From Terribacillus aidingensis (lineage in GTDB: Bacteria; Bacillota; Bacilli; Bacillales; Amphibacillaceae), in assembly GCF_040703035.1 (NCBI RefSeq), contig NZ_CP159996.1, positions 1,150,001 through 1,214,000 of the forward strand: a stretch of DNA of 64,000 nucleotides. The letters run 5' to 3'. The notes under the pieces were generated by a model that was given only the letters and a program-made list of their open reading frames with translations, searched no databases and was not told the DNA's origin. The translations under genes and the position numbers were made by a program. This document shows, piece after piece, positions 11,829-56,003 of this stretch (positions within the stretch are counted from its first letter, which is position 1; the number at the start of each line of letters is the position of its first letter).

Positions 11829-11833
11829 CATTC

Positions 11834-12223: not shown

Positions 12224-12323
12224 GACTAAAAACTCCTCTATTATTGTCTGCAACCTCTATCATATGATATTTTCGCAGATTTTAGAAGTCTAGCAGTAGA
12301 ATTGCTAACTTTCTGACAAGTTA

Positions 12324-12602
12324 TCAATAATAGTAAGTGTCGGAATACGTTGGATCTGATTCAAATAGTGCTATACCGAGAATCATGAAAATCATGAAGA
12401 CAAGGAAATAAAGTACGATAACTGCGGCCATTACGATAAATGTAGCAATGGCATAATTCCTTCTTGGATTGGCACGATCAGCTGCCCAGATGATCAGCAT
12501 GATAATATTGACAAGCGGAATTCCTGTTAATACCAATGTCCATACCCATTGCATAATTCTCATTTGACCATTGCTTTGATGGTCTCTTTGTTGTGGTTCC
12601 AT
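12324..12602 (-). CDS. small two-helix membrane protein, 92 aa
   Basis: Unrecognised. A polar Gln/Arg-rich N-terminus is followed by a membrane segment (about residues 19-40), a short basic loop (DRANPRRN) and a second long hydrophobic segment (about 51-78), ending in an acidic/tyrosine tail. The layout resembles short DUF4870- or phage-shock-like membrane proteins, but no family can be named. AGGAGCG is upstream of the ATG. Confidence 0.65.
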   Translation of the reverse strand: MEPQQRDHQSNGQMRIMQWVWTLVLTGIPLVNIIMLIIWAADRANPRRNYAIATFIVMAAVIVLYFLVFMIFMILGIALFESDPTYSDTYYY

Positions 12603-12713
12603 AAATAAATCGCTCCTGACTTAGGTAAAATAATGACAGAAATAACTATAATGGATAGTTTCTGTTAATTCAACCAGTGTCAGTAAACCCTACAAAGCTG
12701 GTATGAAGCTATT

Positions 12714-12854
12714 TTAGGGACTTTTCTCCTGATTCGCTGCCCGCTCCAGTCTTTGTTTCGTTTCCAGCATTTCTTGCCGTGTCATCGGATCAAAAAGACC
12801 TTCCGCAAGGGTTTTATCAATATATTGGATTGCTTTGTCCAATTGGGAATCCAT
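12714..12854 (-). CDS. small soluble protein, 46 aa
   Basis: Short ORF starting MDSQLDKAIQYIDKTL and ending AANQEKSP. AAGGAG lies at good distance upstream of the ATG at 12854. It is a charged, helix-forming sequence with no membrane segment and no recognised family. The ribosome site and helical composition support translation, but its role is unknown. Confidence 0.55.
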   Translation of the reverse strand: MDSQLDKAIQYIDKTLAEGLFDPMTRQEMLETKQRLERAANQEKSP

Positions 12855-13048
12855 TTTCTTGGCACTCCTTCTCCATAGGTTTTCTCTACTACCGGGATTT
12901 GTTAATACTTCCAGTATAATGACACATAATCACATCTTTTATACTAGGTAAATTGCAGTCTGATTCCTGAAAATATTATAATTCTAGAGGTTGTCCGCCA
13001 ATCCCTCTTTCGATATGCTTAATTTATTGAAAAGTTGAGGTGAAACAG

Positions 13049-14170: not shown

Positions 14171-14281
14171 ATGCAGATTTTGATGGTTATTGTTAAAGAA
14201 TGGACATAAATCAAAGCAAGGTAACTTTCTATCATGTTATAATAAAGGAATAGACTATTTTTTGTAAGGAGATGCTGTATC

Positions 14282-14452
14282 ATGCCACCAAGCGTGCGTT
14301 TGATTCTGATCTTGGCGGTGGCCTTGCTTACTGTCGGGCTCTTATTTTATGGAGCTGTCAAAAGTAAGCAGATGAGGGTGCCTTTCATGATTTTGGGGAT
14401 ATTATTAGCATTCATCTATATCGTTTCATTTATCGTATTATTTGTTATATAA
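14282..14452 (+). CDS. small hydrophobic protein, 56 aa
   Basis: Two hydrophobic segments joined by a basic loop (AVKSKQMR), starting MPPSVRLILILAVALL. TAAGGAGA lies at good distance before the ATG, and a strong terminator starts at the stop codon, so this is very likely a real single-gene unit. No family is recognised. Confidence 0.65.
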   Translation: MPPSVRLILILAVALLTVGLLFYGAVKSKQMRVPFMILGILLAFIYIVSFIVLFVI

Positions 14453-14486
14453 AAAGCATGCACAAATATCGTGCATGCTTTTTATA
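14451..14486 (+). terminator. terminator after the 56-aa membrane protein
   Basis: AAAAGCATGCAC pairs with GTGCATGCTTTT around a short AT loop, followed by further T residues. Confidence 0.88.
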
Positions 14487-14541
14487 TTTTCTACAGGAAA
14501 GCGTACCATTCATTTCTAGGAACAGTGAAATTGAAACATTA

Positions 14542-14571
14542 TTGTAATGTTTTGTCACACTTTCGTATAGT
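14542..14571 (+). promoter_or_regulatory. putative promoter with a WalR-like direct repeat
   Basis: TTGTAA and TATAGT lie 18 bases apart, about 105 bp upstream of the M23 peptidase gene. The same stretch contains TGTAAT (14543) and TGTCAC (14553), resembling the WalR box (two TGTWAH hexamers five bases apart) but with four bases between. WalR control of a wall hydrolase would be sensible, but the fit is imperfect. Confidence 0.4.
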
Positions 14572-14674
14572 ATACTGTTTCCGGAGATTACTTTATTTTC
14601 TATTCATTACAGATTAATCATACTAGGGCTATAAGAATCAAAATCAAATAAATAGATTCACAGGGGGAACGGAT

Positions 14675-16138
14675 TTGAGAAAAAAATGGCTGCATATCGG
14701 TTTGGCTGCAGTGATCGGAACTGCTGCACTTGTCTTGCCGGTATCTAGTAATGTTGCTTTTGCCTATGAGGATTTGGATGAACAAAGAGAAGAAGTCGAA
14801 CGGAAGAAATCGGAGAATGAAGAGCAGCAAACAGAGAAGTCAGAGAAGCAGGATGACTTGCAGGCTGCTGCTGCGAAACTCCGCACTGAGTTAGAGAAAA
14901 TCGATGGCAAAATCAGTGAAACGAACACCAAACTAGCAGATACAGAATCTGAGATTTCCAGCTTGGAATCTGATATTGATACATTGAAGAAGGAAATTGC
15001 TGATCTTGAAGTCCGGATCGAAGAGCGTCACGGTTTGCTGAAGGATCGGATGCACTCTTTGCAGAAAAGTGGGGGTCAGGTAAAATATTTGGATGTCATC
15101 ATGGAATCCAAGAGTTTTTCGGACTTCCTGAACCGTGTTGATGCTGTAAGCACAATCATGGGAGCCGATCAGGATTTGATGGAAGCTCAGCAGCAGGACT
15201 TAGAAGATGTTGAATCTAAGAAATCAGAGCGTCAAACAAAGCTTGTTCGTGTAGAGAAGCAGGCAGATGTCTTAGAAGAGACAAAGCAAACCTTGACAGA
15301 TCAGCAGGAAGAGAAGGACAAGCTTATTGCAGAGGTTATGGAAGAATATGATGTAACTTCTGAGGAACTTGTCAGTCTGAGTGAAGAATCCGCATTGCTG
15401 GCTGCCCAGGAAGAAGCTATTGCTGCAGAGGTTGCTTACCGTGATAAGCAGAAAGCAGAGGAAGAAGCACGCAAGGAAGAAGAGCGTCAGCGTGCAGAGC
15501 AAGCAAAGCAGGAAGAAGCTGCTAGAGTAGCAGCAGCTGAAAAAGAAGCAGCTGCCGAAGCGGAAAAAGCTTCTGCATCTGCTGCAAGCGAATCGACAGT
15601 AAAACAAGTGCCGAAGCAGGAAACATCTGAGCAGAAGCAAACAGCAGATACGAAGTCGACATCTGCTAAGTCAGCTCCAGCTAAACAGGCAAATACTGCA
15701 CCAAAACAGGAGCAGCAAACATCCAAGGTTCCTGCGTCCAGTGGTGATTTCATTACACCAGCACCTGGCAGTATTACTTCCGGTTTCGGACCAAGATGGG
15801 GTACATTCCATTACGGAATCGATATTGCGAAGCGTGGGTCTAATGTGCCGATTTGGGCAGCAGCTTCTGGTACGGTGTCACAAGCCTACTATTCTTCCAG
15901 CTACGGAAATGTGATTTTTGTGAGCCATTCTATTGATGGAAAAACATATACAACTGTATATGCTCATTTAACATCCATGAAAGTAAGTGCAGGTCAGCGT
16001 GTCTCCCAAGGGCAGCAGATCGGAACAATGGGGAATACAGGTATGTCTCAAGGGCAGCACCTTCATTTCGAATTGCACACAGGTGCATGGAACGGCAGTA
16101 AATCAAATGCAGTGAACCCGATTCCATATTTGAATTAA
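14675..16138 (+). CDS. EnvC-like murein hydrolase activator / M23 metallopeptidase with coiled coil
   Basis: 487 residues, secreted. Signal peptide at residues 1-30, then a long coiled coil (about 35-250) rich in Glu, Lys and Gln, an Ala/Glu/Lys low-complexity linker (about 250-355), and a C-terminal M23 (LytM) domain with HYGIDIAKRG and GQHLHFELH carrying the zinc-ligand positions. Both M23 signatures are intact, so it may be an active endopeptidase rather than a degenerate activator. The architecture parallels CwlO/EnvC proteins controlled by FtsEX, but with M23 in place of NlpC/P60. The start is TTG with GGGGGAA upstream. Confidence 0.88.
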   Translation: MRKKWLHIGLAAVIGTAALVLPVSSNVAFAYEDLDEQREEVERKKSENEEQQTEKSEKQDDLQAAAAKLRTELEKIDGKISETNTKLADTESEISSLESDIDTLKKEIADLEVRIEERHGLLKDRMHSLQKSGGQVKYLDVIMESKSFSDFLNRVDAVSTIMGADQDLMEAQQQDLEDVESKKSERQTKLVRVEKQADVLEETKQTLTDQQEEKDKLIAEVMEEYDVTSEELVSLSEESALLAAQEEAIAAEVAYRDKQKAEEEARKEEERQRAEQAKQEEAARVAAAEKEAAAEAEKASASAASESTVKQVPKQETSEQKQTADTKSTSAKSAPAKQANTAPKQEQQTSKVPASSGDFITPAPGSITSGFGPRWGTFHYGIDIAKRGSNVPIWAAASGTVSQAYYSSSYGNVIFVSHSIDGKTYTTVYAHLTSMKVSAGQRVSQGQQIGTMGNTGMSQGQHLHFELHTGAWNGSKSNAVNPIPYLN

Positions 16139-41423: not shown

Positions 41424-41720
41424 ATGTCAGGACAAATTCGCATGACCCCTGAGCAGTTACAAAACCATGCAAAGAGATATGGTAAGGGTTCTCAAACAAT
41501 TGATGACGTTCTTACAGATCTAAGTAATCTGCAGGTACAACTTCGTTCAGAGTGGGAAGGTAGAGCTTTCGATCGTTTTGATGATCAATTCATCCAGCTG
41601 AAGCCTAAAGTTCAAGAGTTCTCCCAGCTTATGCTAGATATCCAGCAGCAGCTCGAGAAAACAGCTCAAGCAGTACAAGAGCAGGACGAAGCACTATCAC
41701 AAAACTTCGGATTCAGATAA
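41424..41720 (+). CDS. esxA: WXG100 protein EsxA/YukE
   Basis: 98 residues, helical hairpin with the central WEG turn (SEWEGRAFDRFDDQF), typical of secreted WXG100 substrates and structural partners of T7SS. The start follows GAGGAG. It is first gene of the ess-like cluster and is separated from esaA by 179 bp carrying a stable hairpin, which would allow it to be made in excess over the membrane components, as is usual for EsxA. Confidence 0.95.
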   Translation: MSGQIRMTPEQLQNHAKRYGKGSQTIDDVLTDLSNLQVQLRSEWEGRAFDRFDDQFIQLKPKVQEFSQLMLDIQQQLEKTAQAVQEQDEALSQNFGFR

Positions 41721-41899: not shown

Positions 41900-44800
41900 T
41901 TGAAAAAGTTTGATAAAAGATGGATTTTATTTTTAGTACTTATCGTATTGCTAGCGTCTGGTTTATCTTACTTAACCTTGCACCAGGAAACGACGAAGAC
42001 AGCGGAACAGCCGCAAACACAGAATATGTCGGTTGCACTTGTAAATGAAGACCAAGGTTCTACGTTTAATGGTACCGAGCTTGCCTTCGGGGATGCCTTT
42101 GTCAATTCGGTTAGTGAGAATGAGAATCATGAGTGGTTCGTCGTAAGTCGGGGAGTTGCGGAAAGCGGCTTGAAGAATAATACATACGATATGATGATCG
42201 TAATTCCCAATGACTTTTCGGAGAAATCACTCAATATCACTGCTGAAGCACCTGAGCAAGTAGTGCTGCAGTATAAGATCAATGCATCTGAAAATCCGCG
42301 TATGAAGGAAGAAGCGGAGAAAACAGCAAGTGATATCCTGAATGATTTTAACAGAAGAGTTATTGATGTGTATTTTGCCAGCATCATCGGGAATCTGCAG
42401 AATGCACAAGATAACATTGGTCAGATGGTCAACCGTCAAGCGGCATATACGAATTCCTATAACTCAAATGTGTTCCAGCCATTGTCTGGCTACACCGATC
42501 AATTCGGTATGGTAAGAGACAATACCGAAGTTTCAAAAGAAAGCTTCACAAGTTTCGGTGAGCTGCTGGCTTCTTATGAAGATCAGCTAGTTGACGAAAC
42601 GCAGCTCGGAGAAGACTTCGTCAGCAACCTGGACGAAGTGATGAATTTAAAAGAAACGAATAACACGGAACTTATAAACTTCCAGGATCAAATCAATCAA
42701 TTCAGTCAAGGTTTGACGGCTGGGGAAGTCGACCAGCGACTGGATCAGCTTGTTGCTGCCAATGAAGCAATCAACCGTCAATTCGCAGCAAGTCAGCAGA
42801 ATGCTGTTGATACAGTTATGAACCGTCCAGTTACATCATTAAATACGACTAATATCTATTCGGGTTCTGTATCACTACAGCAGCAGCTGCAGGATTCCTC
42901 TAAAAGAGTTGCAGCCTTACAGCAGGATATTGATGCGTATCTGACGGAAAGCAATGAGCAATTCAGGGCTAAGATCGAGGATAGAATCAGGAATACGATT
43001 GAGGAAGAGCTTGATGAAGATCAGTATTTAAATATCAATGCGCTGTTTGAAGACCCTAATCAAGTTGCTGTTAATAGAATTAACCGAGCTATTGGAAAGC
43101 TGCCTTCTTTGAATATTGAAGATTTTCAAAATGTAGGCTTGCCTGATAGTACAGTAAATGAGATTACGAATGTCATTGCAATGACAGAAAAATATCAGAA
43201 TGAAATTAAGAATGTAAACATTGATCGGGATCCTTCCCCTATTTTGAAAGATGAATTTGACAGATTGAATGAGAAGCTGACAGGAGAAGGTGTTCAGGTA
43301 ACAGATAGTGTCAACATTCCTGAAAATAAAAAAGAAGGACAGATTTTCCGTTTACAAGTTCCAGAAGGTTTCAAAGTTAGTCATTTGGGAATCCAGCTTC
43401 CAGGTGAAGCAGAGCAGTCTTACACAGGAGCAATAGAAAGTGGCGAAGTAAAATTACCAGCCAACCGTGAGGGCGAATTTAAGGTGAATCTCACCCTGCG
43501 GAAAGAAGAAGGAAGCTTCGATGTTTACAAGCCCATCGATTGGAGCTGGACTTTAGAGCAGAAGGATATAGGAGATGTAGATAAACCAGATGATTTGGCT
43601 TATGCACCTACAAAAGGAAATCTACTTGCAACTACCCAAATCAAAAATGACGATAACCAGCGAGTTGAAGAAGATGCGGTTACCGAAGAAGATACACCAG
43701 CAGAAGATACATCATCTGATAATGGAGAAAATGATCAAACTGCGCCTGAAGAAGGAAACCAGCCTGATGAAGATAATGCTGAAACTCCAGTAACTCCGCC
43801 TGATAATGATCAGGGTGAAAACCCAGGTGAAGGAGGAACCGATCAGCCAAGTGAACCAGGTGAGGGCGAAGAACCAGGAGATTCCAACGAACAGCCAGGC
43901 AGTGATAAACCAGATGAAGAAGATAAAGATGAGCCTGAGAAGCTCTATATCAAAGACAATATCATCGAGCATCAAATCAGTACGCCTGTAGAAGACTTGG
44001 ATGATACGACTGAGACATTGATTCGCACTGTGACAAATACAATCACTGCGTATCAAGAACTTGGCTCACTATACGAAAGTTATTATGGTTTTGGATTGCA
44101 TGGACTACCAGATGATTTTAGTTCCACAAGCTTAAATGATTTGGCTACCAATGACTCCCTGTATTACTTATTTAAGAAAAAAGACATTAAGGATCTTCTT
44201 GCAGGCTATATGACGAACCAAATCACTGGCAGCGTTACAGAACAGCTTCAAACACCAGCGGAAGCATTCCGTCAGCAAGTAGGAGACTACCAGTCGCGAG
44301 TACAGCAAGCTATCGCAGATGCTGATACACTAACTGGCCAGGTTGCCGCAACGACTGAACAAGCAGCGGTCTTGAATGACAATGTCAGCCGGACATTAGA
44401 AGATGTAGCAGCATGGCGCGAACAAATGATGACGGTACTGGATGGTCAGACAGAAATCCAAACGAATGCCCAGGGTGAGCAGGAAGCTGTCCTGACATTA
44501 GGCAGTGAATTCCAGCCGCTTCTAATGTCGAGTCAGTCATTAGCTGAGCAAGCACAAAGTAATACGAATACAGCTGATCAAGTATATGAAACCTTCGATA
44601 ATATTGATACGCAAGCTAGAGAAATCGAAGAGAGCGGTACAAATCTAGTAAGCGATGCGGAGACGCTTGCTTCCAATCTGACAGACAAGCTGTCGGATGA
44701 TCAGAACTTCACGGAGAACTTCACGGAAGTGCTGGCAAACAGCCGAGTCGGTGACAGGCAGAATGAAAATCTATATGATTTCCTTTCCAATCCTGTCCAG

Positions 44801-45436
44801 ACAAGCAATGAAGGTACGATAGCAGCACAAGCCGAGACGATTTTCACGCCTTATTATCTAGTGCTGATCAGTTTCATTGTCGTTCTCTTCACGGCTTATG
44901 TCATCTCTACGTTGCATATGAGACGAAAACAGGATGATCAATTTGCATCAGATATATCACTAATGGTACAGCACGCACCAATCACTATCATTACAGCGGG
45001 TATTGGTCTGTTGGAAGGTATCGTCATTGGTATTGTATCCAGCTACTATTTGCCAATTGACGATTTGAACAAACTGCAATTGACAGCTGTCATGGCTCTC
45101 CTTATCACGGCGATGCTGTTGATAGCGACTTACTTGTTAAGACAGATGAAAATGATCGGAATGTTCATCCTGCTGGCGATATTCAGTTTGTATCTGTTCT
45201 TTACAGATGCGATCGGTACAGCAAGCACAGCATTCCCGACAATTGAGAAGTTTTCTCCTCTTCAATACATGGAAACATTCATGCTTCGTATTGTAGAAGG
45301 CTCGGTCAACTATGTTGTTGCGATATTTGCACTAGTCATCGCAGCGGCTGTAGGTGCCTTAGCCAACCTATTGGTCATTAGCCAATCGGATAAAGGAGTA
45401 GATAATGCCGATGACAACCAAACGGAAGCTGGTTGA
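41900..45436 (+). CDS. esaA: T7SS membrane protein EsaA/YueB
   Basis: 1178 residues, larger than B. subtilis YueB. One N-terminal membrane helix (about 8-25), a very long extracellular region, and about five helices from residue 985 on (for example LVLISFIVVLFTAYVIS). EsaA forms the extracellular stalk of the secretion machine; YueB is the SPP1 phage receptor. A low-complexity acidic, Pro/Gly-rich linker lies at about residues 585-680, between the N-terminal half and a second helical half. TTG start with CAGGAG upstream. It overlaps essA by 32 bp. Confidence 0.93.
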   Translation: MKKFDKRWILFLVLIVLLASGLSYLTLHQETTKTAEQPQTQNMSVALVNEDQGSTFNGTELAFGDAFVNSVSENENHEWFVVSRGVAESGLKNNTYDMMIVIPNDFSEKSLNITAEAPEQVVLQYKINASENPRMKEEAEKTASDILNDFNRRVIDVYFASIIGNLQNAQDNIGQMVNRQAAYTNSYNSNVFQPLSGYTDQFGMVRDNTEVSKESFTSFGELLASYEDQLVDETQLGEDFVSNLDEVMNLKETNNTELINFQDQINQFSQGLTAGEVDQRLDQLVAANEAINRQFAASQQNAVDTVMNRPVTSLNTTNIYSGSVSLQQQLQDSSKRVAALQQDIDAYLTESNEQFRAKIEDRIRNTIEEELDEDQYLNINALFEDPNQVAVNRINRAIGKLPSLNIEDFQNVGLPDSTVNEITNVIAMTEKYQNEIKNVNIDRDPSPILKDEFDRLNEKLTGEGVQVTDSVNIPENKKEGQIFRLQVPEGFKVSHLGIQLPGEAEQSYTGAIESGEVKLPANREGEFKVNLTLRKEEGSFDVYKPIDWSWTLEQKDIGDVDKPDDLAYAPTKGNLLATTQIKNDDNQRVEEDAVTEEDTPAEDTSSDNGENDQTAPEEGNQPDEDNAETPVTPPDNDQGENPGEGGTDQPSEPGEGEEPGDSNEQPGSDKPDEEDKDEPEKLYIKDNIIEHQISTPVEDLDDTTETLIRTVTNTITAYQELGSLYESYYGFGLHGLPDDFSSTSLNDLATNDSLYYLFKKKDIKDLLAGYMTNQITGSVTEQLQTPAEAFRQQVGDYQSRVQQAIADADTLTGQVAATTEQAAVLNDNVSRTLEDVAAWREQMMTVLDGQTEIQTNAQGEQEAVLTLGSEFQPLLMSSQSLAEQAQSNTNTADQVYETFDNIDTQAREIEESGTNLVSDAETLASNLTDKLSDDQNFTENFTEVLANSRVGDRQNENLYDFLSNPVQTSNEGTIAAQAETIFTPYYLVLISFIVVLFTAYVISTLHMRRKQDDQFASDISLMVQHAPITIITAGIGLLEGIVIGIVSSYYLPIDDLNKLQLTAVMALLITAMLLIATYLLRQMKMIGMFILLAIFSLYLFFTDAIGTASTAFPTIEKFSPLQYMETFMLRIVEGSVNYVVAIFALVIAAAVGALANLLVISQSDKGVDNADDNQTEAG

Positions 45437-45908
45437 TTTGGCGTTCATATTCACCATTATTCTGCTGATACTTCTACCTATAGAAGTATCAGCAGAAACT
45501 AATTCTGATGAAAATGAACGTGGAAGTCTGCAGATGCAAATCGACCGTATACAAAAGCAAAAAGATGTTGGGACAGATAACCAGGAAACGGAGAAGGAAA
45601 AAGTTTTCCCAGGACTATTCAATGAGGAAACGACAGATGAAATTCAGCAAAAAGCGGAAGGCAAAAGAGCGGATGTAGAATCATTGCGAGATAGTGTTTT
45701 TACACTGGACATCAATAAGCAATCTTCATTAGAGGAAGTGCAGGATACATTATTTACCGCAGACTATACCTCTGAAGCTGCCAGTGGTCAGAAGGCAGCG
45801 GATCAAGCTGAAGAGGATTCCGGAAATGGAGTACTTTATTTCCTAATTGGAATAGCGCTCGCGTTATGCATCGGCTTATATATGATGATGCGAAAATTAT
45901 TAGACTAG
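45405..45908 (+). CDS. essA: T7SS component EssA/YueC
   Basis: 167 residues. N-terminal signal-like helix (residues 9-30), a polar extracellular middle rich in Glu/Gln with RADVESLRDSVFTLD, and a C-terminal membrane helix (about 143-161, LYFLIGIALALCIGLYMMM). EssA is a small membrane subunit required for secretion in S. aureus. Its start overlaps the esaA end, and esaB follows 10 bp downstream, so the genes are coupled. Confidence 0.85.
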   Translation: MPMTTKRKLVDLAFIFTIILLILLPIEVSAETNSDENERGSLQMQIDRIQKQKDVGTDNQETEKEKVFPGLFNEETTDEIQQKAEGKRADVESLRDSVFTLDINKQSSLEEVQDTLFTADYTSEAASGQKAADQAEEDSGNGVLYFLIGIALALCIGLYMMMRKLLD

Positions 45909-45918: not shown

Positions 45919-46173
45919 ATGGCCAACACGAAACATATTAACGTCACGATGGACTTCCAATCTGTCAGCGGAGAAGGATCTGTCTATGACTTGCGAATCC
46001 CCACCCAACTAACGGTGAAGCAGCTGCTTCATCACGTAATGGATACATTGCATATCGAAATAAATGACATTCATTCCACGATCAAGATCGTAACCAAGCA
46101 TCTTGTCCTGGCGGATGATGACTATCTAAGAGACTATCCAGTCACAGACGGCGATGTACTCGTAGTCTTATAA
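45919..46173 (+). CDS. esaB: ubiquitin-like T7SS protein EsaB/YukD
   Basis: 84 residues, beta-grasp fold of the YukD family; pattern HINVTMDF at the first strand and YPVTDGDVLVVL at the end. It lacks the C-terminal diglycine of ubiquitin, as usual. Cytoplasmic; needed for full T7SS activity by an unresolved mechanism. GGAGAAAG lies before the ATG. Confidence 0.9.
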   Translation: MANTKHINVTMDFQSVSGEGSVYDLRIPTQLTVKQLLHHVMDTLHIEINDIHSTIKIVTKHLVLADDDYLRDYPVTDGDVLVVL

Positions 46174-46216: not shown

Positions 46217-47491
46217 ATGAATGAGAGAAAAATAGAATTGGATAAAGCTACATATACCCTACAGCAGGATAAACAAACTATCCGGATAACAATGCCCAAA
46301 TCACAAACCTCGGTAAAAGATATCCGGCAGCTTCATTTGATGCACCAACCTTCCGATCAGTTTGTACCAATGGAGGTACAAGAAGAGGAAGATACTTTAG
46401 CTTTCATCTACAACACCAATCCCAACCATAAAAAGTGGTCTGACGTCCAAAAGCTGCGTCAAGATGATAAACTGCGCATTTTGAGCAATATTGGCAAACT
46501 TGAACGCTTTTTGTCCAGTCGGATTACGTTTTTCCTTCATCCTGACAATCTCGTCTTCGATGAGAACTTGATGCCGCAAGTGATTCATCGCGGTGTCCGT
46601 GAAATCGTACCCCCATTCGATATGCAGTCAGAGACATTCCTTAAACAATATAAATGCTTGAGCATCGCCATGTTCTCGAAGAAATATTCATTCGATCAGC
46701 TTTATCATGGCTCCCTTGAGAATGCAAATGAATCAGATTTTGAGAAGAAGATCCAAAAGCTTGAAACGATTGAAGCATTAAGACAATTCCTGCGAGAGAG
46801 CTATGCAAAGGAACAGAAAAAAACGGATAAGACGATGAGCTTTTTACCGACAAAACGTTTTAGGTTATATAAACGCTTATCCATCATCATGATTATCCTT
46901 AGTGTTTTGCTGGCAGCGCCGCTTGTTTACTTTGCGCTGATCAAGGACCCTTTCCAAGATAAGCAATTGGAAGCGCACGGTGAGTTCCTAGCGGACAATT
47001 ACAATGACGTTATTTCAACTTTGGCAGAAGAGGATCCGGAAAAGCTGCCGAGCCAGACCAAATATGCACTGGCGTATTCCTATATCCAGGTAGAAGCTTT
47101 ATCTGATGAAGAAAAAGAATCAATTTTAAAAAATGTATCCTTGAAGAGTGACCAAGATTATCTGCTTTATTGGATCTATAACGGTCGTGGAGAATTCGAT
47201 ACTTCCTTGAATAAAGCCAAGTATATTGATGATCCGCAGCTGATTATCTACGGCTTGATCAAGAAAATCGAACAAGTGAAGAACAATCCGGATCTATCGG
47301 GTACGGATCGTGACAGACAAGTTGAAGATTTCCAAAATCAGCTGGATAAATTGCTGGAAGAATATAATATGGATCCTCTTGGTGAGGAATCCGGTAGTGA
47401 AGCGGCACCTGATCAGGAAGCTGCAACAGAGGAACAGCAAAACACTGAGGATCAAAATGCTGATGAAAATAAGCAAGAAGAAGAGAAATGA
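46217..47491 (+). CDS. essB: T7SS component EssB/YukC
   Basis: 424 residues. Cytoplasmic pseudokinase-like domain (1-220), single membrane helix (about 224-243, LSIIMIILSVLLAAPLVYFA), then an extracellular helical domain and a Gln/Glu-rich acidic tail of about 30 residues. EssB/YukC bridges the ATPase to the outer-face components. GAAGGAG lies before the ATG. The order before essC is the same in staphylococci. Confidence 0.92.
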   Translation: MNERKIELDKATYTLQQDKQTIRITMPKSQTSVKDIRQLHLMHQPSDQFVPMEVQEEEDTLAFIYNTNPNHKKWSDVQKLRQDDKLRILSNIGKLERFLSSRITFFLHPDNLVFDENLMPQVIHRGVREIVPPFDMQSETFLKQYKCLSIAMFSKKYSFDQLYHGSLENANESDFEKKIQKLETIEALRQFLRESYAKEQKKTDKTMSFLPTKRFRLYKRLSIIMIILSVLLAAPLVYFALIKDPFQDKQLEAHGEFLADNYNDVISTLAEEDPEKLPSQTKYALAYSYIQVEALSDEEKESILKNVSLKSDQDYLLYWIYNGRGEFDTSLNKAKYIDDPQLIIYGLIKKIEQVKNNPDLSGTDRDRQVEDFQNQLDKLLEEYNMDPLGEESGSEAAPDQEAATEEQQNTEDQNADENKQEEEK

Positions 47492-47535: not shown

Positions 47536-50500
47536 ATGGCACATAAAACACTGCTCATAGCATATAAAGATAAACTGCATAAATGCCATTTGCCAGAACA
47601 ATCAGGTCAGACTGTAATCATCGGGGATAAGCGCAAGGACCAGGTAACGATAGCTGGACTGACTACTGAGATAGAACTGGACTGGGACGGACAGAAACTA
47701 TCCTATCAGCAAGAGGAGATTCGTGCTGCTAAACAAATAGGGGAACTGCAGCTATATGTAATTGATACGAAAAAGTACAACATATTTGATATTGCTGGCC
47801 AGCAATCTGTCACATTCGGTGCAGCGACCTACAATGATATAAGTAAACAGCATTGGAAAGCCGATTTTGTACTAATGCGTGAAACAGGTGTGGATGGTTT
47901 TCGAATAGATTTACGTAGCGGAAGCATCTACCATAACTACCGCCTGCTCCAAGATGATGCACTGGTGGAAGATGGAGATATCCTGTTTGTAGATGGCGTC
48001 ATGATGACAATCTACACAGATACAATTGAAATCAACTCAAACGGAAGCTTGGATGCTTCGTTCATGGAATTGATCGGTCAAGAAAAACCATACGGCGGGG
48101 AGTATCCAGACTATCACCGTTCTCCGCGTATCATTTACCGGGAACCAGAAGAGCAACGAACCATTGCAAAACCAGCCAATAAGCCGAGTAAACCGAGTGA
48201 GCAGCTGGCGAGGAACATTGTACCGCCGCTGGTCATGATAGCGGCTTTAGTTGCTATTTCACTGGTTCAGCCTCGTGGGATTTTCATCATCGTTATGGTA
48301 ATCGCCACTTTGGTTACGGTCATCTTTTCCATTACGTCTTATGTGAAAAATGTGCGTAAATACAAAGCGGACATGAAACACAGAGAGGCAACGTATAAGA
48401 GCTACCTAAAGAGAAAAACGAAGGAACTATATCATGCAAGTGAAGAACAGCGACATGCGCTGCATTACCACTATCCTGATGTAGAGAAAATTTCGGGAAT
48501 GGCAGCTGCGACAGAAGCTCGTATTTATGAGAAGACACCTTACCACCATGATTTTTTGAACTTCCGTACAGGATTAGGGCGCGTGGATACAAGCTTTGAG
48601 ATTTCTTACAACGAGGAAGAATTCACACAGGAACAAGATGATTTGGTAGATGAAGCAAGACATTTACTAGACCAGTTCAAAGAATTGCATGATGTTCCGG
48701 TCATAACGTCCCTGACGAAGGGACCGGTTGGTTATATCGGGCAGAGAAAGCTTGTTCTGGAGCAGCTCCAGCTATTAGTGATGCAGCTTTCTTTATTCCA
48801 CAGTTATCATGATTTACAGTTCGTTACGATTTTCCCGGAAGAAGAAAAGCAAGAGTGGGATTGGATGCGCTGGCTGCCGCATGCAAGTGTGCGGGACATA
48901 AATGTTCGAGGCTTCATTTATCATGAACGTTCCCGCGACCAAGTACTCCATAGCTTGTATCAAGTGCTGAAAGAGCGGAAGCTGCAAGTGGATGAAAAAA
49001 GCAATTCGAATGAGAAGCTTTATTTCTCACCTCATTATGTTGTCCTTATTACCGATGAAAAGCTGATTTTGGATCATACAATTATGGAATTTTTCAATGA
49101 AGATCCAAGTCAATACGGTGTATCGCTAGTCTTCGTTCAAGATGTTATGCGAGCATTGCCGGAGCATGTGAAAACAGTCATCGATATCCGCGATAGCAAT
49201 GACGGAAAGATCATCCTAGAAGAGGCAGAGCTTGTAAACAAAGCGTTCAAACCAGATCATTTTCCGAAGGATTTCAATAAAGAAGCTGTCTCAAGAGCTT
49301 TGGCTCCACTAAACCATCTCCAAAACCTGAAGAATTCCATCCCAGAACAAGTAACGTTCCTGGAGATGTATGGAGTAGAGAAGGTGGAAGAATTAGCGAT
49401 ACAAGCACGCTGGCGCAAGAATGAGACATACAAGACTCTTGCTGTACCACTTGGACTGAGAGGAAAAGAAGATATTGTTCACCTTAATCTTCATGAGAAA
49501 GCACACGGTCCGCACGGATTGGTAGCGGGTACGACAGGATCTGGTAAATCGGAAATTATCCAGTCGTATATTCTTTCGCTTGCTGTAAACTTCCATCCTT
49601 ATGAAGTTGCATTCCTCCTGATTGACTATAAAGGAGGGGGAATGGCGAATCTGTTCCGCAAGCTGCCGCATTTGATGGGTACAATCACCAACTTGGATCG
49701 TGCACAATCAATGCGTGCTTTAGCTTCCATTAAAGCAGAGCTGCAAAAAAGACAGCGTCTGTTTGGCGAGTATAACGTCAACCATATTAACCAATATCAG
49801 AAGCTATTTAAACAAGGAAAAGCAGCTGAACCAATGCCGCATTTATTCCTTATTTCAGATGAGTTCGCCGAGCTGAAGTCCGAACAGCCGGATTTCATGA
49901 AGGAACTCGTTTCTACGGCCCGTATCGGACGTTCCTTGGGAATCCACTTGATTCTTGCGACACAAAAACCAAGTGGTGTAGTGGATGATCAAATCTGGTC
50001 CAACTCCAAGTTCAAGCTGGCATTGAAGGTACAGAATGCAAGCGATTCGAATGAAATTATCAAAACACCTGATGCAGCGGAAATCACACTGCCTGGCCGT
50101 GCTTATTTGCAAGTTGGAAACAATGAAATCTATGAACTGTTCCAGAGTGCATGGAGCGGAGCAGACTATATTCCGGATAAAAACGATGAAGACCATGTGG
50201 ATCTTACCATCTACAGCATCAATGATCTGGGGCAATATGACATTTTAACGGAAGATTTAAGCGGACTGGAGAAGAAGGAATCTATTGAAAAGATTCCATC
50301 AGAGCTTGATGCCATCATTGATCATATTGCGGATTACACAGAACAGCAGCGTATTGAACCTTTAGCACGCCCATGGCTGCCGCCTCTGCCAGAAAAGATT
50401 TTCGGGCCGGAACTTCACCCAGTTTCATTCCGTGATGCATGGAAAGAACCGAAAAAGCCTTTGGAGCCGATGATTGGTTTACTCGACCAGCCGGAAATGC

Positions 50501-51969
50501 AGCAGCAGATTCCATTGACGCTAAATCTATCCAAAGACGGACATATTGCTGTATTTGCGAGTCCAGGTTACGGGAAATCGACATTCCTACAGACAGTTGT
50601 CATGGATTTGGCGAGACAGCATAACCCGGAACATTTGCACGTGTATTTGCTTGACTTTGGTACGAATGGATTACTCCCATTAAAGAATCTGCCGCATGTA
50701 GCCGATACGTTCCTCGTCGATCAAGTCGAGAAAGTAGGCAAATTAATCCGAATGCTGAATGGGGTTATGAAGCAGCGTAAACAAAAGCTGAGCCAGTACA
50801 GTGTGGCGAACATAGGCTTGTTCGAAAAAGCAAGCGGGGAGACTGTACCGAATATCTGTATTGTGATTGATAACTATGAGTCTGTCAGAGACAGTGATTT
50901 CGGTGACGATTTCGAGAAGGTAATCACACAGATTGCCCGGGAAGGTGCCAGCATCGGAATTCATCTGATTATCAGTGCCGGGCGCCAAAGTGCGATGCGC
51001 ATGCCTTTGCTGTCCAATATCAAGACACAAATCGCTTTGTACCTGATTGAGTCCAACGAAGCAAGATCGATTGTAGGACGCACCGATATAGAAATTGAAG
51101 AAATCGCAGGCCGAGGTCTTGTGAAAATGGAGGAACCAGCATTATTCCAGACCATGCTGCCTGAACACGGGGAAGAAGCATTGGAAATCCTTGATCGGAT
51201 ACAGGATCTAGCTAAAGACATGAACGAAGTATGGGATGGAGACTATCCGGATGCTATCCCGATGATGCCAGAAGGTGTTGTGGACTTCCTTGAATTCAAG
51301 GAACAGCGTCGTACCAAACGGATATTGGAAGAGAAGAAAGTGCCGCTTGGGCTTGATTTTGAAGAAGTATTGCCTGTTGCCTATAATCCGGCGCAATATG
51401 ATCACATGACCGTTATCAGCGATCGGAAAGATGGATTGGATCGTATGATCAGATCTGTCGCGAAGAACGTTACCTTACTGAAAGATGTGTATCAAACGAT
51501 GCTTATTGATACAGCAGATCAGGATATGGCTGACGTAGGGAAAGACATGCATGCTTATGTGTCTGAATCAATCGGTATCTCAACTATCAAAAATGAGCTT
51601 ATAAATGAGATCAAGCAACGAAATTCAGATGGAGTATCGGAACCAAAATGGCTTGTTCAAATTGCAGACCTGCAGGACTTCACGGAACGTGCCGGACTTA
51701 CTCTTGAAGAAGCTACTCTCATGATGGAACGCGGCAGCAAAGCGGGCATTCATTTCATAATTTGCAGCGATTACAACTATATCGGTATCAGTTATGAACA
51801 AGTTCCTAAATATCTTCGCAGCCAAGCTATCTTCGGACTCGTCGGCATGCGCCTGGGCGATCAGGATCTTTTCAAACAGCCATTCATCCGCCAGGAGAAA
51901 TATCCAGAACCATACGAATGCTATGTTGCCATGGATCATCAGCATGTGAAAGTGAAAATTCCAGAATAG
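47536..51969 (+). CDS. essC: T7SS FtsK/SpoIIIE ATPase EssC/YukBA
   Basis: 1477 residues, the motor and recognition subunit. Tandem FHA-like N-terminal domains (1-190), two membrane helices (about 227-270), a conserved linker, then three FtsK-like ATPase domains: D1 with GTTGSGKSE near residue 665, D2 with ASPGYGKST near 1008, and a degenerate D3 beginning about 1290 (VISDRKDGLD lacks a normal P-loop). The C-terminal variant region of EssC is known to match the local effector set, fitting the cargo genes immediately downstream. GAGGAAGAAG lies before the ATG. Confidence 0.95.
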   Translation: MAHKTLLIAYKDKLHKCHLPEQSGQTVIIGDKRKDQVTIAGLTTEIELDWDGQKLSYQQEEIRAAKQIGELQLYVIDTKKYNIFDIAGQQSVTFGAATYNDISKQHWKADFVLMRETGVDGFRIDLRSGSIYHNYRLLQDDALVEDGDILFVDGVMMTIYTDTIEINSNGSLDASFMELIGQEKPYGGEYPDYHRSPRIIYREPEEQRTIAKPANKPSKPSEQLARNIVPPLVMIAALVAISLVQPRGIFIIVMVIATLVTVIFSITSYVKNVRKYKADMKHREATYKSYLKRKTKELYHASEEQRHALHYHYPDVEKISGMAAATEARIYEKTPYHHDFLNFRTGLGRVDTSFEISYNEEEFTQEQDDLVDEARHLLDQFKELHDVPVITSLTKGPVGYIGQRKLVLEQLQLLVMQLSLFHSYHDLQFVTIFPEEEKQEWDWMRWLPHASVRDINVRGFIYHERSRDQVLHSLYQVLKERKLQVDEKSNSNEKLYFSPHYVVLITDEKLILDHTIMEFFNEDPSQYGVSLVFVQDVMRALPEHVKTVIDIRDSNDGKIILEEAELVNKAFKPDHFPKDFNKEAVSRALAPLNHLQNLKNSIPEQVTFLEMYGVEKVEELAIQARWRKNETYKTLAVPLGLRGKEDIVHLNLHEKAHGPHGLVAGTTGSGKSEIIQSYILSLAVNFHPYEVAFLLIDYKGGGMANLFRKLPHLMGTITNLDRAQSMRALASIKAELQKRQRLFGEYNVNHINQYQKLFKQGKAAEPMPHLFLISDEFAELKSEQPDFMKELVSTARIGRSLGIHLILATQKPSGVVDDQIWSNSKFKLALKVQNASDSNEIIKTPDAAEITLPGRAYLQVGNNEIYELFQSAWSGADYIPDKNDEDHVDLTIYSINDLGQYDILTEDLSGLEKKESIEKIPSELDAIIDHIADYTEQQRIEPLARPWLPPLPEKIFGPELHPVSFRDAWKEPKKPLEPMIGLLDQPEMQQQIPLTLNLSKDGHIAVFASPGYGKSTFLQTVVMDLARQHNPEHLHVYLLDFGTNGLLPLKNLPHVADTFLVDQVEKVGKLIRMLNGVMKQRKQKLSQYSVANIGLFEKASGETVPNICIVIDNYESVRDSDFGDDFEKVITQIAREGASIGIHLIISAGRQSAMRMPLLSNIKTQIALYLIESNEARSIVGRTDIEIEEIAGRGLVKMEEPALFQTMLPEHGEEALEILDRIQDLAKDMNEVWDGDYPDAIPMMPEGVVDFLEFKEQRRTKRILEEKKVPLGLDFEEVLPVAYNPAQYDHMTVISDRKDGLDRMIRSVAKNVTLLKDVYQTMLIDTADQDMADVGKDMHAYVSESIGISTIKNELINEIKQRNSDGVSEPKWLVQIADLQDFTERAGLTLEEATLMMERGSKAGIHFIICSDYNYIGISYEQVPKYLRSQAIFGLVGMRLGDQDLFKQPFIRQEKYPEPYECYVAMDHQHVKVKIPE

Positions 51970-51982: not shown

Positions 51983-52402
51983 TTGAGTAAGAATTTGAGC
52001 ATTTTGCAATCACGCAAGCGGTCCCTTTTGAATGGAATTAGTGATGCAAGAAGTCAAGCACAAAGCTGGGGCGATAAAATTACTCGCCTCCAGCAGGCTT
52101 CTAACAGTCTTCAGTCAGATATAACAGCATTGGAAGCAGATAAAGGCAAAATTGACACCTACGAAATCGATGTAAGACGCTGGAAAGGCAAAGAAGAAAC
52201 CCGCTTTTTCGATGCCTATGCCGAGTACAAAGATCAAGTCCAGCTCTTCGTCAAAAAGACAAAGCAAGCAAAAGAAACAATAGATGATGAAATTGTTCGC
52301 TGTGAAGCGAATCGTGCTAGTTGTCTGGCTAGTGCTGAAAACTTGTCTATGTCTTTAAGCACTGTGGAAGGTAGGATTAGACAAGAGATGAAGAAGGAGT
52401 GA
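51983..52402 (+). CDS. DUF5082/YwqH-like LXG accessory protein
   Basis: 139 residues, almost entirely helical with heptad patterns (ITRLQQASNSLQSDITALEAD) and a central Trp-Lys-Gly turn (RRWKGKEETRFF) that recalls the WXG turn. It corresponds to YwqH in B. subtilis, first gene of the ywqHIJK LXG toxin operon. Such LXG-associated alpha-helical proteins bind the LXG domain and help target it to EssC. TTG start with AGGAGGAG, 13 bp after essC. Confidence 0.85.
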   Translation: MSKNLSILQSRKRSLLNGISDARSQAQSWGDKITRLQQASNSLQSDITALEADKGKIDTYEIDVRRWKGKEETRFFDAYAEYKDQVQLFVKKTKQAKETIDDEIVRCEANRASCLASAENLSMSLSTVEGRIRQEMKKE

Positions 52403-52406: not shown

Positions 52407-52676
52407 ATGGGGAAAGAAGTAGCTATTAATATGGAAGTATTTGAATCCAATGTCAGCAGTCTAAAGGCATCGGCAGAATCATTGCTTTTTAGCCAGCATA
52501 AAAGCTATACACTGGAAAAAACAAATATAGCACCATTTACGAAGGATTTGGAACAAATGGTAAAAGCTATTGAACTCTTAGATAAATACCAGTCATTCCT
52601 GACACAAGATATCCAAACATTAAAAGAGGTCGGAGAAACAATGCGGGACACTGACGAGCAGCTAGGTAAGAAATAA
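52407..52676 (+). CDS. DUF5344/YwqI-like LXG accessory protein
   Basis: 89 residues, helical, starting MGKEVAINMEVFESNVSSL, the pattern of YwqI-type proteins. No WXG turn is visible. It probably pairs with the preceding protein and the LXG effector to form the export complex. AAGGAG lies before the ATG, four bases after the previous stop. Confidence 0.8.
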   Translation: MGKEVAINMEVFESNVSSLKASAESLLFSQHKSYTLEKTNIAPFTKDLEQMVKAIELLDKYQSFLTQDIQTLKEVGETMRDTDEQLGKK

Positions 52677-52719: not shown

Positions 52720-54201
52720 ATGGGAAATAAAGTGGACATGAGTGAGGTTAATCGCTTTTCAAAGGACTTAGCCAATATCTCAAGTAATATTACAGAAGTT
52801 TTGGAACAAATAAATTCTGATTTAGAAAAAATAATAAGTATGGATTCCTTTAGTGGAGAAGCAGCAGATAAGGCAAAAAGCTATTATACCAATGTACATG
52901 GAACCACCATAAAGCTGTTTCAGGATTTATGGAGTGAATTAGAGGTAAATATAACCAACCATATAGAGACTTTTGCTACTGTCGTAGATACAGATAAAGC
53001 CGCTATTATTGAGAGTGATTACCTAACTGAATCAAGCACAGAGATTGAAACACAGCATAGTGCACTAGAATCAGAAGAATCATCAGTTCATAAAACAATT
53101 GATAGTATTTTAGACATTTGCCACGTAAATAAACCGACTTTAGCGACAGCAACAACAAATAAAGAAAAAGCAATAGAAATTATAAAAACGACTCATGACA
53201 ATTTGGAGAGCTTTAAAAGTAACGGTAAAGACGAAATAGAGCAGTTGGATAGTGTCATGGAAGACATCAGGAAAGCTATGGATGAAGCAGGTAAGGAATC
53301 CGGTACTAAGCGATTTGATACAGGTATTGATGGGGAGAAGGTATTAGCTATTTTAAGCAAAGCTGTGACAAATCTAACGTATGCAAAAGATTTAACTGCA
53401 GGTTATACATCTAATAAACCGGTTATCCAAGCAGCTAAGGACTTGGGATTAAATGTTGTAAAAACAAAAGATAAAAATACTGGCAAGCCAATTTATCGTA
53501 TAAGTGCTACCGAAGAAGCATTAAGAAAATTAGGTGTTGAACCTGATCCTCATGCGTTACGTGCATTAGGGCATAAAAAAAATGGTAATGTTAAAGCGCA
53601 CTGGAGTGAGAGAACTAGAATACGTTATCTCAAGAAAGCACCTTTACGCTATTATAATGAGAAGACGGGAAAGCATATATGGTCTGTGACTGGTAAACGT
53701 GTACTTGAAAAATATCCTCAGTTAGAGGCATGGAATGAAAAGGCAGGAATGCTAGATAAAATAAAGGATGTTTCTAAAGTAACAGGTAAAGAAACACTCA
53801 AGGGTCTCAAAGATAGTGTTGTTCCTGATATTAAAAGTTTTGCTTCAAGCTCCGGAGGCGTTGTAAAAGGGGCAGCGAAGTCTTTAGGTCCAATAGGGAC
53901 AGGCTTAAGTTATTATAGTAATTATAATGATGCTAAGAAAGGTGGACTCTCAGGTGGTGATGCAGTTTCTCGGGCAGTTCAGGATACTGTTATTGACACT
54001 ACGGTAAGTACAACGGTTCAAGCGACTCTTACCACTTTGGGGACGGTTGCAATTCCGATCCCAGGTGTAGGAACTGCAATCGGTGCAGGTTTAGGGGTGC
54101 TAACAAATATAGGTCTGAATATGAAATTTGGGAAGAGTAAAAAATCTGTTATGGATCGTACGAAAGATACTTTTCATAAGATTAAGGGTTGGTTTAGCTA
54201 A
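52720..54201 (+). CDS. LXG-domain T7SS effector with glycine-zipper C-terminus (predicted pore-former)
   Basis: 493 residues. The N-terminal ~230 residues are helical and of LXG type (for example SFSGEAADKAKSYYTNVH near 46). A middle region (about 235-340) is basic and aromatic (RTRIRYLKKAPLRYYNEKTG) with no recognised enzyme motif. The last ~125 residues hold Gly/Ala-rich hydrophobic stretches, TVAIPIPGVGTAIGAGLGVL at about 446-465 having the GxxxG spacing of a glycine zipper. This resembles membrane-active T7SS toxins such as TspA and TelE rather than nucleases. No catalytic residues are seen. The strong GGAGGG site and neighbours support expression. Confidence 0.8.
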   Translation: MGNKVDMSEVNRFSKDLANISSNITEVLEQINSDLEKIISMDSFSGEAADKAKSYYTNVHGTTIKLFQDLWSELEVNITNHIETFATVVDTDKAAIIESDYLTESSTEIETQHSALESEESSVHKTIDSILDICHVNKPTLATATTNKEKAIEIIKTTHDNLESFKSNGKDEIEQLDSVMEDIRKAMDEAGKESGTKRFDTGIDGEKVLAILSKAVTNLTYAKDLTAGYTSNKPVIQAAKDLGLNVVKTKDKNTGKPIYRISATEEALRKLGVEPDPHALRALGHKKNGNVKAHWSERTRIRYLKKAPLRYYNEKTGKHIWSVTGKRVLEKYPQLEAWNEKAGMLDKIKDVSKVTGKETLKGLKDSVVPDIKSFASSSGGVVKGAAKSLGPIGTGLSYYSNYNDAKKGGLSGGDAVSRAVQDTVIDTTVSTTVQATLTTLGTVAIPIPGVGTAIGAGLGVLTNIGLNMKFGKSKKSVMDRTKDTFHKIKGWFS

Positions 54202-54215
54202 GGAGGTAAGAATCA

Positions 54216-54986
54216 TTGAAACAATTTAATGAACAGGACTTTGCTGTATTAAGAAAAACGCTAGAATCAGGAAGGCAAAGTCCATCTATGTTAGGAGGAG
54301 TATTAATATTATCTATTATTATGACTCCAATATTATTTTTAATAACATACATTGTAATGTACGATCAATCTACTTATCCATATAAAGATTTATTATTAGA
54401 AATTCATTTATATATGTCTATTTTAATATGCATCTTTTCAATATTATTCGCGATACCAACTATTTATAGAAGGTTTGAAAGAATACAGTACCTTATAATT
54501 ATTATCGTTTCTCAAAATATATTTGCTTGGTTGCCGTTAGTTGCTTGTTTATTCTTAATCGGAAAAGACCCAGGAATGAACACGAGTGACTTAATTTGGT
54601 TAACCATCTTCTGTTTAATAGTAGGAATTATTATTTTCGCAGTAACGTTAATTCGCTTTTATGGGTTACTGAAGAAGGGCGCATATAGATTAGGGACTTC
54701 TAGAGATAGAAATAGATCGGTTTTAGAAGATTTGGTTTCCAAAAATAAGATAACTATTATTCTCGCTAGCGTTGGACTAGTTTACATAATCCAATTCTTG
54801 ATTAGAAGTTTAGATTATTTGGCTATTGATACTATTGTGTTTAGCGTTATAGGATTATTAATTTACTTTGCAATGCAATTCGTTCTTCCTGAACAGCTGG
54901 TAATGTTATATTGCAAATATAAGTTCGAGAGTTTTAATCATAATAAAAAGGGTGGCTTAAAACCCATGAAAGTAAAGAGAGTATAG
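54216..54986 (+). CDS. polytopic membrane protein, likely immunity protein
   Basis: 256 residues, about six membrane helices (near 25-48, 62-82, 90-117, 123-150, 178-196, 203-225), ending in a basic tail. No family is recognised. It starts 14 bp after the LXG effector with a strong AAGGAGG and a TTG start. Membrane-depolarising T7SS toxins (TspA, TelE) are neutralised by polytopic membrane immunity proteins encoded directly downstream, so this position and topology make immunity the leading hypothesis. It is notably AT-rich. Confidence 0.7.
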   Translation: MKQFNEQDFAVLRKTLESGRQSPSMLGGVLILSIIMTPILFLITYIVMYDQSTYPYKDLLLEIHLYMSILICIFSILFAIPTIYRRFERIQYLIIIIVSQNIFAWLPLVACLFLIGKDPGMNTSDLIWLTIFCLIVGIIIFAVTLIRFYGLLKKGAYRLGTSRDRNRSVLEDLVSKNKITIILASVGLVYIIQFLIRSLDYLAIDTIVFSVIGLLIYFAMQFVLPEQLVMLYCKYKFESFNHNKKGGLKPMKVKRV

Positions 54987-55074: not shown

Positions 55075-55530
55075 ATGAACCTTGAAATTAAGCAGTTATA
55101 CTTTACGAATGTACTAATATATAAAAATACAATGTTACGTGAAGACTGGCAAGATGGTGTAGTTATTATGGAAAATTTCATCCTGAACGAAGATATTTAC
55201 CGGAATGGTCCGGTTTTCTTTTCTGTAAAATCAGTTGATAATGAACCCAAGTATGGACAATTTGAATATTATCTACCGGTAAATGAATGGGTAGAACTTG
55301 AGGGACATCCGAAATTCCGCTTTGAATCAGAAATAGAAATAGGAGAGGCATTAGTGTTACGGCAGGCATCGGAAGAAATGGATTTTCAAACAGCATACTC
55401 TAAGATCACGGAATATGCAGATTTAAAAGGCATTGAGTTGGAAGACTCGTTCTATTGTTTTTTACTAGAAGTCTACGAGGACATTATTATTGATGTATAC
55501 GTACCAATAAAGCGGGGTGATTCCAATTGA
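55075..55530 (+). CDS. LXG-locus associated protein, possibly DUF5085-like (copy 1)
   Basis: 151 residues, soluble, acidic; a mixed alpha/beta pattern (NLEIKQLYFTNVLIY, then PVFFSVKSVD and a C-terminal IIIDVYVPI). It shares layout with the next ORF: an N-terminal strand, a substrate-free central ...FFS.... strand, an acidic region and a C-terminal strand. DUF5085-like proteins occur near LXG toxins in Bacillus and Listeria, but the assignment is tentative. AAAGGA precedes the ATG. It overlaps the next gene by four bases. Confidence 0.65.
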   Translation: MNLEIKQLYFTNVLIYKNTMLREDWQDGVVIMENFILNEDIYRNGPVFFSVKSVDNEPKYGQFEYYLPVNEWVELEGHPKFRFESEIEIGEALVLRQASEEMDFQTAYSKITEYADLKGIELEDSFYCFLLEVYEDIIIDVYVPIKRGDSN

Positions 55531-56003
55531 TAACGAATCACAAGTTTGCTTATCGTAATGTAGCTTCAAAGTATTATGCTTTCCGACCTGAAGAAATCGA
55601 TAAGGCCATGGACGACTTTAGAGAAATCTTAGAAGGAAGCGGTCTGCATTTGTCTGGAAATATGTTCTTCTCTATTATAAGTGATCCACAGAGTGAAATT
55701 ATGACGGCAGAGATTTTTTTAACAGTAGATGAAGGTACAATAAAAGGTTACATTAATCCAGAGGAAGAGGTTAGATTCCGGAGTTATTTCACACTTAGTC
55801 CCATGTTGATGACGAGAATAATGGAAGACTTTGACCAGAAATCCCAAGAAAAGTATTGGGAGCTAATAGGGTATCTACAAGTGAATCAATTGGAGCAAAG
55901 CACACCAGTTTTTGTTGAGTACAAAAACAGCTTGTCTGGAATTAATTACGTAGAGATGAGTGTAGGCTACGCGATAAATTTAAACGATTATGTTATTGAG
56001 TGA
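55527..56003 (+). CDS. LXG-locus associated protein, possibly DUF5085-like (copy 2)
   Basis: 158 residues, paralogous in layout to the preceding ORF (NHKFAYRNVASKYYAF, NMFFSIISDP, SVGYAINLNDY). Start is TTG overlapping the previous stop (TTGATAA). Together they would form a coupled pair, perhaps a heterodimer serving as a chaperone, adaptor or extra immunity. No membrane segment or enzymatic motif. A terminator oriented to the opposite strand lies just beyond. Confidence 0.65.
   Translation: MITNHKFAYRNVASKYYAFRPEEIDKAMDDFREILEGSGLHLSGNMFFSIISDPQSEIMTAEIFLTVDEGTIKGYINPEEEVRFRSYFTLSPMLMTRIMEDFDQKSQEKYWELIGYLQVNQLEQSTPVFVEYKNSLSGINYVEMSVGYAINLNDYVIE

Follow-up and report, generated by a model that had tools for sequence, protein, structure and literature searches.

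A probable glycine-zipper LXG toxin locus of Terribacillus aidingensis and a candidate family of six-helix membrane immunity proteins

Described zipper toxins and the layout of the locus

In the excerpted account (PMC12744356), the EsxX locus of Staphylococcus aureus ST398 opens with DUF5344 and DUF5082 genes; the glycine-zipper LXG toxin comes next, and a six-helix protein, a pair of DUF5085 proteins and another six-helix protein are encoded behind it. According to the same excerpts, the DUF5085 protein ExiB gives protection within the cell and binds the zipper, and the DUF5085 proteins of this system act only on cytoplasmic toxin. ExiC and ExiD are described there as protective only jointly and only against outside or exported EsxX, failing against cytoplasmic EsxX, and their homologues are stated to be encoded only in Staphylococcaceae (PMC12744356). 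TelE of Streptococcus gallolyticus is blocked by its own DUF5085 protein, TipE, while Gallo_0563, a six-pass protein encoded next to telE, did not protect Escherichia coli expressing TelE (excerpts of PMC10434224). In the excerpted text on both toxins, toxicity is tied to the zipper end (PMC12744356, PMC10434224). A further LXG toxin of S. aureus, TspA, depolarises membranes and is paired with a membrane-protein antidote, TsaI (DUF443), whose genes occur in strings (excerpts of PMC12744356 and PMC9484751).

As far as these excerpts go, reports of the outside-acting EsxX pair are thus confined to Staphylococcaceae, and no role has been assigned to the six-pass protein next to TelE. Here we describe a locus from Terribacillus aidingensis, within a window (the whole stretch of DNA analysed) of 64,000 nucleotides. 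In our reading it probably encodes an antibacterial T7SSb toxin of the glycine-zipper kind that EsxX and TelE represent, together with antidotes for two separate compartments, DUF5085 proteins inside the cell and a six-transmembrane protein (6TM) against toxin from outside. Toxins of this kind are already known and the locus is not a new kind of system; the 6TM immunity family would be the new element. A family found in many Bacillales and in some more distant records, encoded after zipper toxins, switching alleles together with the toxin tail and also present where the toxin is not, would fill this gap.

The effector gene lies directly 3' of a T7SSb gene set on the + strand. This set begins with an EsxA-type WXG100 protein (41424..41720; PF06013, 80.7 bits against a cut-off of 27.3) and a membrane protein with a TTG start (41900..45436; weak ABC2_membrane_3 match, 25.7 bits against 31.6), which we take from its position and size to be of the EsaA/YueB type. 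EssA (45405..45908; PF10661, 59.3 bits), EsaB/YukD (45919..46173; PF08817, 43 bits) and EssB/YukC (46217..47491; PF10140, 443.9 bits) follow, and then a motor ATPase with FtsK/SpoIIIE domains (47536..51969; PF01580, 196.6 bits), identified as EssC by context. Two small helical proteins are encoded next on the same strand. The YwqH-like protein (51983..52402) matched PF16888 with 72.5 bits against a cut-off of 33.7, a family that we take to be DUF5082, and is likely a Lap4-type partner of the LXG head. The DUF5344 protein (52407..52676; PF17279, 30.9 bits against a cut-off of 27; TIGR04197, 48.3 bits) carries an FxxxD motif at residues 64-68 and is likely a Lap3-type partner. Small partner genes and a T7SSb, both expected of LXG polymorphic toxins, are therefore present beside the effector.

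The effector of 493 residues (52720..54201, +) is followed after 14 bp by the 6TM open reading frame (54216..54986, +; TTG start), which encodes 256 residues. The initial annotation had noted this gap and the six helices correctly, and had ended its list of the operon at this gene; in fact two DUF5085 genes follow (55075-56003). DUF5085-1 (55075..55530, +; PF16895, 32.4 bits against a cut-off of 30) takes the position of ExiA. DUF5085-2 (55527..56003, +; PF16895, 56.9 bits), in the position of ExiB and TipE, is the proposed cytoplasmic antidote, and the two genes overlap by 4 bp.

This layout resembles that of EsxX, as far as its account was available in excerpts, in the two small helical partner genes (DUF5344, DUF5082) 5' of an LXG toxin whose C-terminus carries a glycine zipper, in the six-helix gene directly after the toxin (the 6TM gene being in the position of exiC) and in the two DUF5085 genes that come next. 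The small partner genes, however, stand in reverse order at our locus, and where EsxX has ExiC (DUF5079) and ExiD (DUF5080) there is one 6TM gene, whose product resembles neither of them at profile level. The available parts of the TelE description likewise give an LXG toxin with the glycine zipper at its C-terminus, upstream DUF5082 and TIGR04197 genes in the same order as here, a six-pass protein directly after the toxin and a DUF5085 antidote. The toxins are likened here by domains and gene plan (a zipper in a hydrophobic stretch, a downstream DUF5085 pair) and not by sequence kinship. 6TM and Gallo_0563 are likewise compared here by gene plan, and the reported lack of protection by Gallo_0563 runs against the role that we propose for 6TM. 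The initial annotation had named TspA and TelE as models. TelE stands, since the locus has the small partner genes and a pair of DUF5085 genes, and for that reason EsxX replaces TspA in the comparison. TspA, in the excerpts of PMC12744356 and PMC9484751, differs from the window effector in its shorter zipper, in being toxic only from outside and in having one membrane antidote.

Head, middle and tail of the effector

The LXG-type N-terminus read in the initial annotation was borne out by a match of residues 5-188 to PF04740 (E=1e-20, 74.9 bits against a cut-off of 26.5), and 52 homologues of the effector were collected. The TelA LXG structure 8gmh was the best match of this domain both by sequence and by fold. 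We divided the effector into the LXG head (residues 1-195; 52720..53304), a basic middle module (residues 215-345; 53362..53754) and the glycine-zipper tail (residues 365-493; 53812..54201), which is the proposed toxin; all three are on the + strand.

The tail had been annotated as a Gly-rich, membrane-active end with GxxxG spacing. Only one segment of the effector, residues 436-468, exceeded the hydrophobicity threshold that we applied, and GxxxGxxxG (451-459) lies inside it. The zipper core (residues 441-465; 54040..54114, +) places these glycines at 451, 455 and 459. The motif alone is not beyond chance, since one turned up in 27% of the shuffled versions of tail residues 365-493; its significance comes from conservation and not from its presence. 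Residues 449, 451, 455 and 459 were glycine in 53 of the 53 aligned sequences, and the last three were invariant across 39 zipper domains, distant ones of 23-28% identity included. The core and the stretch preceding it were the best conserved parts of the effector, with a mean majority identity of 0.75 and 0.71, respectively, against 0.45 for the LXG head. In the AlphaFold prediction the middle was modelled as a mixed alpha/beta domain (pLDDT about 63-86), and confidence in the tail fell to pLDDT <50.

The middle had been described as basic and uncharacterised, of which the first holds (26 K+R against 13 D+E in residues 240-350). As to the second, PF26953.1 was found in 49 of the 52 homologues, the same number that matched our HMM of the middle, and by this homology the window's own middle is very probably PF26953. 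We found no paper naming PF26953 in the open-licence literature. Three of the 52 homologues (P0043, P0046, P0048) have about 95 fewer residues, and of our HMMs those of head and tail match them but that of the middle does not, which points to a separate, dispensable module that is probably not the toxin proper. The distant zipper effectors of loci L073-L077 also matched the head and/or tail HMMs, with no match to the middle. A database search with the middle only returned seven proteins, all already among the effector homologues, and therefore gave no link to another toxin type, at a sensitivity of 7 of the 49 known carriers. Annotations among the relatives can mislead: those listed for P0017, P0021, P0022 and P0083 include FlaC, transposase and ribonuclease YeeF family for effectors, and one 6TM relative is recorded as "ABC transporter ATPase". 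Outside the window, the same genome holds further LXG matches on its contig C1 (positions 3156330, 3192021 and 3171607), the last of these with an internal stop codon.

The 6TM family and its genomic association

The predicted structure of 6TM is a good model (mean pLDDT 85.7) with six long helices at residues 23-48, 57-77, 88-116, 123-153, 178-200 and 204-236, and the charge pattern predicts both ends to be inside. A Pfam scan of the window protein gave no family above cut-off, the only match, to Polysacc_synt, lying below it. The database search returned 62 proteins, the window's own included, and none of these had a precomputed Pfam domain. Identity with ExiC (DUF5079) or ExiD (DUF5080) was rejected on profile comparison, in which hhalign gave probabilities of 1.7% and 1.0%, respectively, against 99.5% with divergent 6TM proteins encoded beside other zipper toxins. 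DUF5079 (PF16882) and DUF5080 (PF16883) are both absent from this genome; in the class, 7 of 299 genomes had the former and 6 of 298 the latter, all of them in one genus. Identity with TsaI was likewise rejected, as neither the window protein nor any of 19 diverse members matched DUF443; this check covered the 15 families matched by the 19 profile A7 members and, for profile A1, 25 of 79 families among the matches listed. Since no described family for 6TM was found in the open-licence literature either, it appears from these comparisons to belong to an undescribed one, in agreement with the initial annotation. The novel toxin-immunity pair suggested there holds as to the 6TM family, whereas the toxin is of the known EsxX/TelE kind.

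Conservation in the family is uneven. Residues P225, E226, Y232, C233, K234 and F240, which form a PE...YCK...F end, were invariant in 19 of 19 diverse members. Mean majority identity was 0.77 in the N-terminal part and 0.82 in the C-tail, against 0.53, 0.30 and 0.41 in the outer loops, and TM2 was as little conserved as the first outer loop (0.53). The best conserved parts thus lie on the predicted cytoplasmic face, which a role in guarding outwards does not by itself explain.

We examined the association of the genes in 299 genomes of the order, picked independently of the toxin, 6TM and DUF5085 genes. Eleven genomes had a strong zipper match, under a threshold (E <1e-18) set post hoc that excludes 20 of the 31 genomes with a match, whose best E values ran from 7.5e-11 to 9.5e-4; DUF5085 was found in ten of these eleven (Fisher p 8e-15) and 6TM in nine (Fisher p 6e-12). 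Among all 31 genomes, weak matches included, 11 had DUF5085 and 10 had 6TM. In seven of the nine genomes the start of the 6TM match lay less than 400 bp from the zipper match, and in the remaining two less than 1.5 kb from it. Four sampled genomes (G085, G099, G131, G230) had DUF5085 without a strong zipper match, and six had 6TM, some as weak matches only, with neither a strong zipper match nor DUF5085. Absences in this sample are provisional, as at least one genome escaped profile A1, namely G085, which profile A7 detected at E 7e-70.

In the loci fetched by their 6TM genes, all 49 zipper reading frames longer than 200 aa (window included) had 6TM at most 300 bp downstream (median 14 bp), a count biased by this choice of loci, from which the 299-genome sample is free; at least two DUF5085 genes followed in 47 of the 49. 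Within the stretch examined, 32 of 52 zipper loci held one 6TM gene and 20 held two or more, and our locus holds one, the only one in the whole genome. Across 35 loci the identity of 6TM correlated with that of DUF5085-2 (0.65), the middle (0.68) and the tail (0.57), values too similar for this comparison to point to the toxin in particular as the 6TM partner. One full locus of the Bacillaceae type (L011) comes from a record titled Roseburia sp. 1XD42-34, a title that may be wrong.

A zipper match nearby was absent from 21 of 73 loci. We searched the genomes behind these loci whole, which came to 19 after leaving out L043 and counting L072 with L029 on their shared contig. No zipper match was found in 14, only remnants (frames of 52-53 residues) in two and an intact copy elsewhere in three; this search, made with profile A3, may have passed over zippers of greater divergence, and assemblies may be incomplete. 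DUF5085 was absent from 10 of the 19, and both zipper and DUF5085 from nine, of which seven carry full-length 6TM reading frames, one (L067) a gene split over two frames and one (L070) a 64-aa fragment. Such candidates for membrane immunity without a toxin are a likeness to ExiC and ExiD, as far as the excerpts describe these. Virgibacillus senegalensis has six tandem 6TM genes, one of them shortened, and at another locus (L016) three 6TM genes adjoin a T7SSb with no LXG gene within the stretch. Both esaG and tsaI are known to occur as strings of immunity genes that are not identical (excerpts of PMC9484751). A further locus (L017) has an LXG gene, 6TM and DUF5085 with no zipper match. There, five tandem reading frames with similar starts follow 6TM and DUF5085 (10566-15651), of which four measure 274-276 aa and the other 180 aa; the two scanned had no Pfam match at E 0.01, and these are possibly another immunity array.

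Proposed roles of the two antidotes and apparent exchange of alleles

Could 6TM instead assist the toxin as a membrane partner in secretion, insertion or sensing, with immunity left wholly to the DUF5085 pair? The predicted cytoplasmic position of its conserved ends, the failure of Gallo_0563 to protect E. coli (excerpts of PMC10434224) and the placement of 6TM close behind the toxin gene, both in the fetched loci and within 400 bp in most of the sampled genomes, are all consistent with this. An accessory would, however, be useless in the nine of 19 genomes that hold 6TM, seven with full-length frames, where neither zipper nor DUF5085 was found. The three 6TM genes beside a T7SSb with no LXG gene within the stretch also count against it. 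DUF5085 proteins of the EsxX system, moreover, are described in the excerpts of PMC12744356 as acting only on cytoplasmic toxin. We consider an accessory role unlikely. We give somewhat less credence still to 6TM conferring immunity only jointly with a second membrane protein, unlinked or non-homologous, in the way that ExiC needs ExiD (excerpts of PMC12744356). The zipper loci with two or more 6TM genes offer products that could pair mutually, while the 32 loci with a single gene, our own locus and genome with just one, and the absence of both DUF5079 and DUF5080 from this genome count against it.

A quite different alternative places toxicity in the middle module, acting for example on nucleic acid or on an enzyme target, with the Gly-rich tail serving only to carry it across a membrane. 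The basic composition and the modelled alpha/beta domain would suit such a role. We regard it as very improbable, given the three homologues that keep head and tail without the middle, the distant zipper effectors with no match to it, and the tie of EsxX and TelE toxicity to the zipper end in the excerpted reports (PMC12744356, PMC10434224).

We therefore return to the zipper toxin with two antidotes. By comparison with TelA and EsxX, the LXG head and the two small helical proteins encoded upstream would target the effector to the adjacent T7SSb. Inside the producer the antidote is most likely the DUF5085 pair, and within it most likely DUF5085-2, which would hold the invariant zipper by analogy with ExiB and TipE. 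Once secreted, the tail would insert into the membrane of a neighbouring cell and depolarise it, as proposed from EsxX and TelE, and the toxin thus probably breaks the membrane barrier of rival bacteria. 6TM, in the cytoplasmic membrane, would block toxin arriving from outside, which for this protein is the more likely of the two sides. The assignment of the inside to the DUF5085 pair and of the outside to 6TM follows from analogy with the EsxX and TelE systems, and immunity from outside by a single gene product would depart from precedent, since ExiC and ExiD are needed together. The initial annotation had proposed 6TM as the immunity protein of the toxin; homology, context and allele coupling keep it as the membrane candidate, and the inside antidote is more likely the DUF5085 pair that was missed there.

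Allele coupling was seen within the genus. Compared with G596, a genome labelled as the same species, identity was 95 and 99% in the two halves of EssC and 99% in the gene that follows the operon, but 66% in the LXG head, 58% in the middle, 54% in the tail, 47% in 6TM and 79 and 75% in the DUF5085 proteins, tail and 6TM being the most divergent. The two 6TM proteins were least alike in TM2, TM4 and the two short outer loops, the first outer loop not being especially divergent (0.62). G596, G590 and G595 were 89-93% identical among themselves in the tail and 79-86% in 6TM, against 54-55% and 45-47% between the window and each of the three. A weaker split of the same direction was seen in the LXG head (66-69 against 79-83%) and the middle (58-66 against 81-88%). 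In DUF5085-1 the split was slight at most and ran the same way as in the tail (79-82 against 81-89%), and DUF5085-2 had none, at 71-79% in every pair. From these identities the tail and 6TM look to have been exchanged together between conserved flanks. A syntenic locus of T. saccharophilus (L045, 7610-9787) lacks both DUF5344 and toxin, keeps DUF5085-2 and a shortened DUF5085-1, and carries a third 6TM type, 43% identical to that of the window; no zipper match was found in this whole genome.

On a broader reading, which in our judgement stands evenly balanced, 6TM would represent a new superfamily that confers allele-specific, single-gene immunity from outside to EsxX-type zipper toxins. The shared cytoplasmic antidote would read the invariant zipper, while the variable tail and 6TM would coevolve as a matched pair; with the zipper antidote shared and tail and 6TM variable and matched, this pair would set who kills whom, and toxin-free strains would gather tandem 6TM genes for defence. 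The natural matched and mismatched pairs of tail and 6TM would be material for studying what sets specificity against a membrane toxin.

In two relatives of the same genus (L122, 12986-17171; L123, 2006-6190) the DUF5085 genes are separated from the next conserved gene by an additional block, which encodes small proteins and a protein of 647-675 aa. The start of the latter resembles that of a 560-aa protein of another locus (L006), which has a weak PT-TG match and adjoins a SUKH immunity gene, and the extra block is probably a second toxin module.
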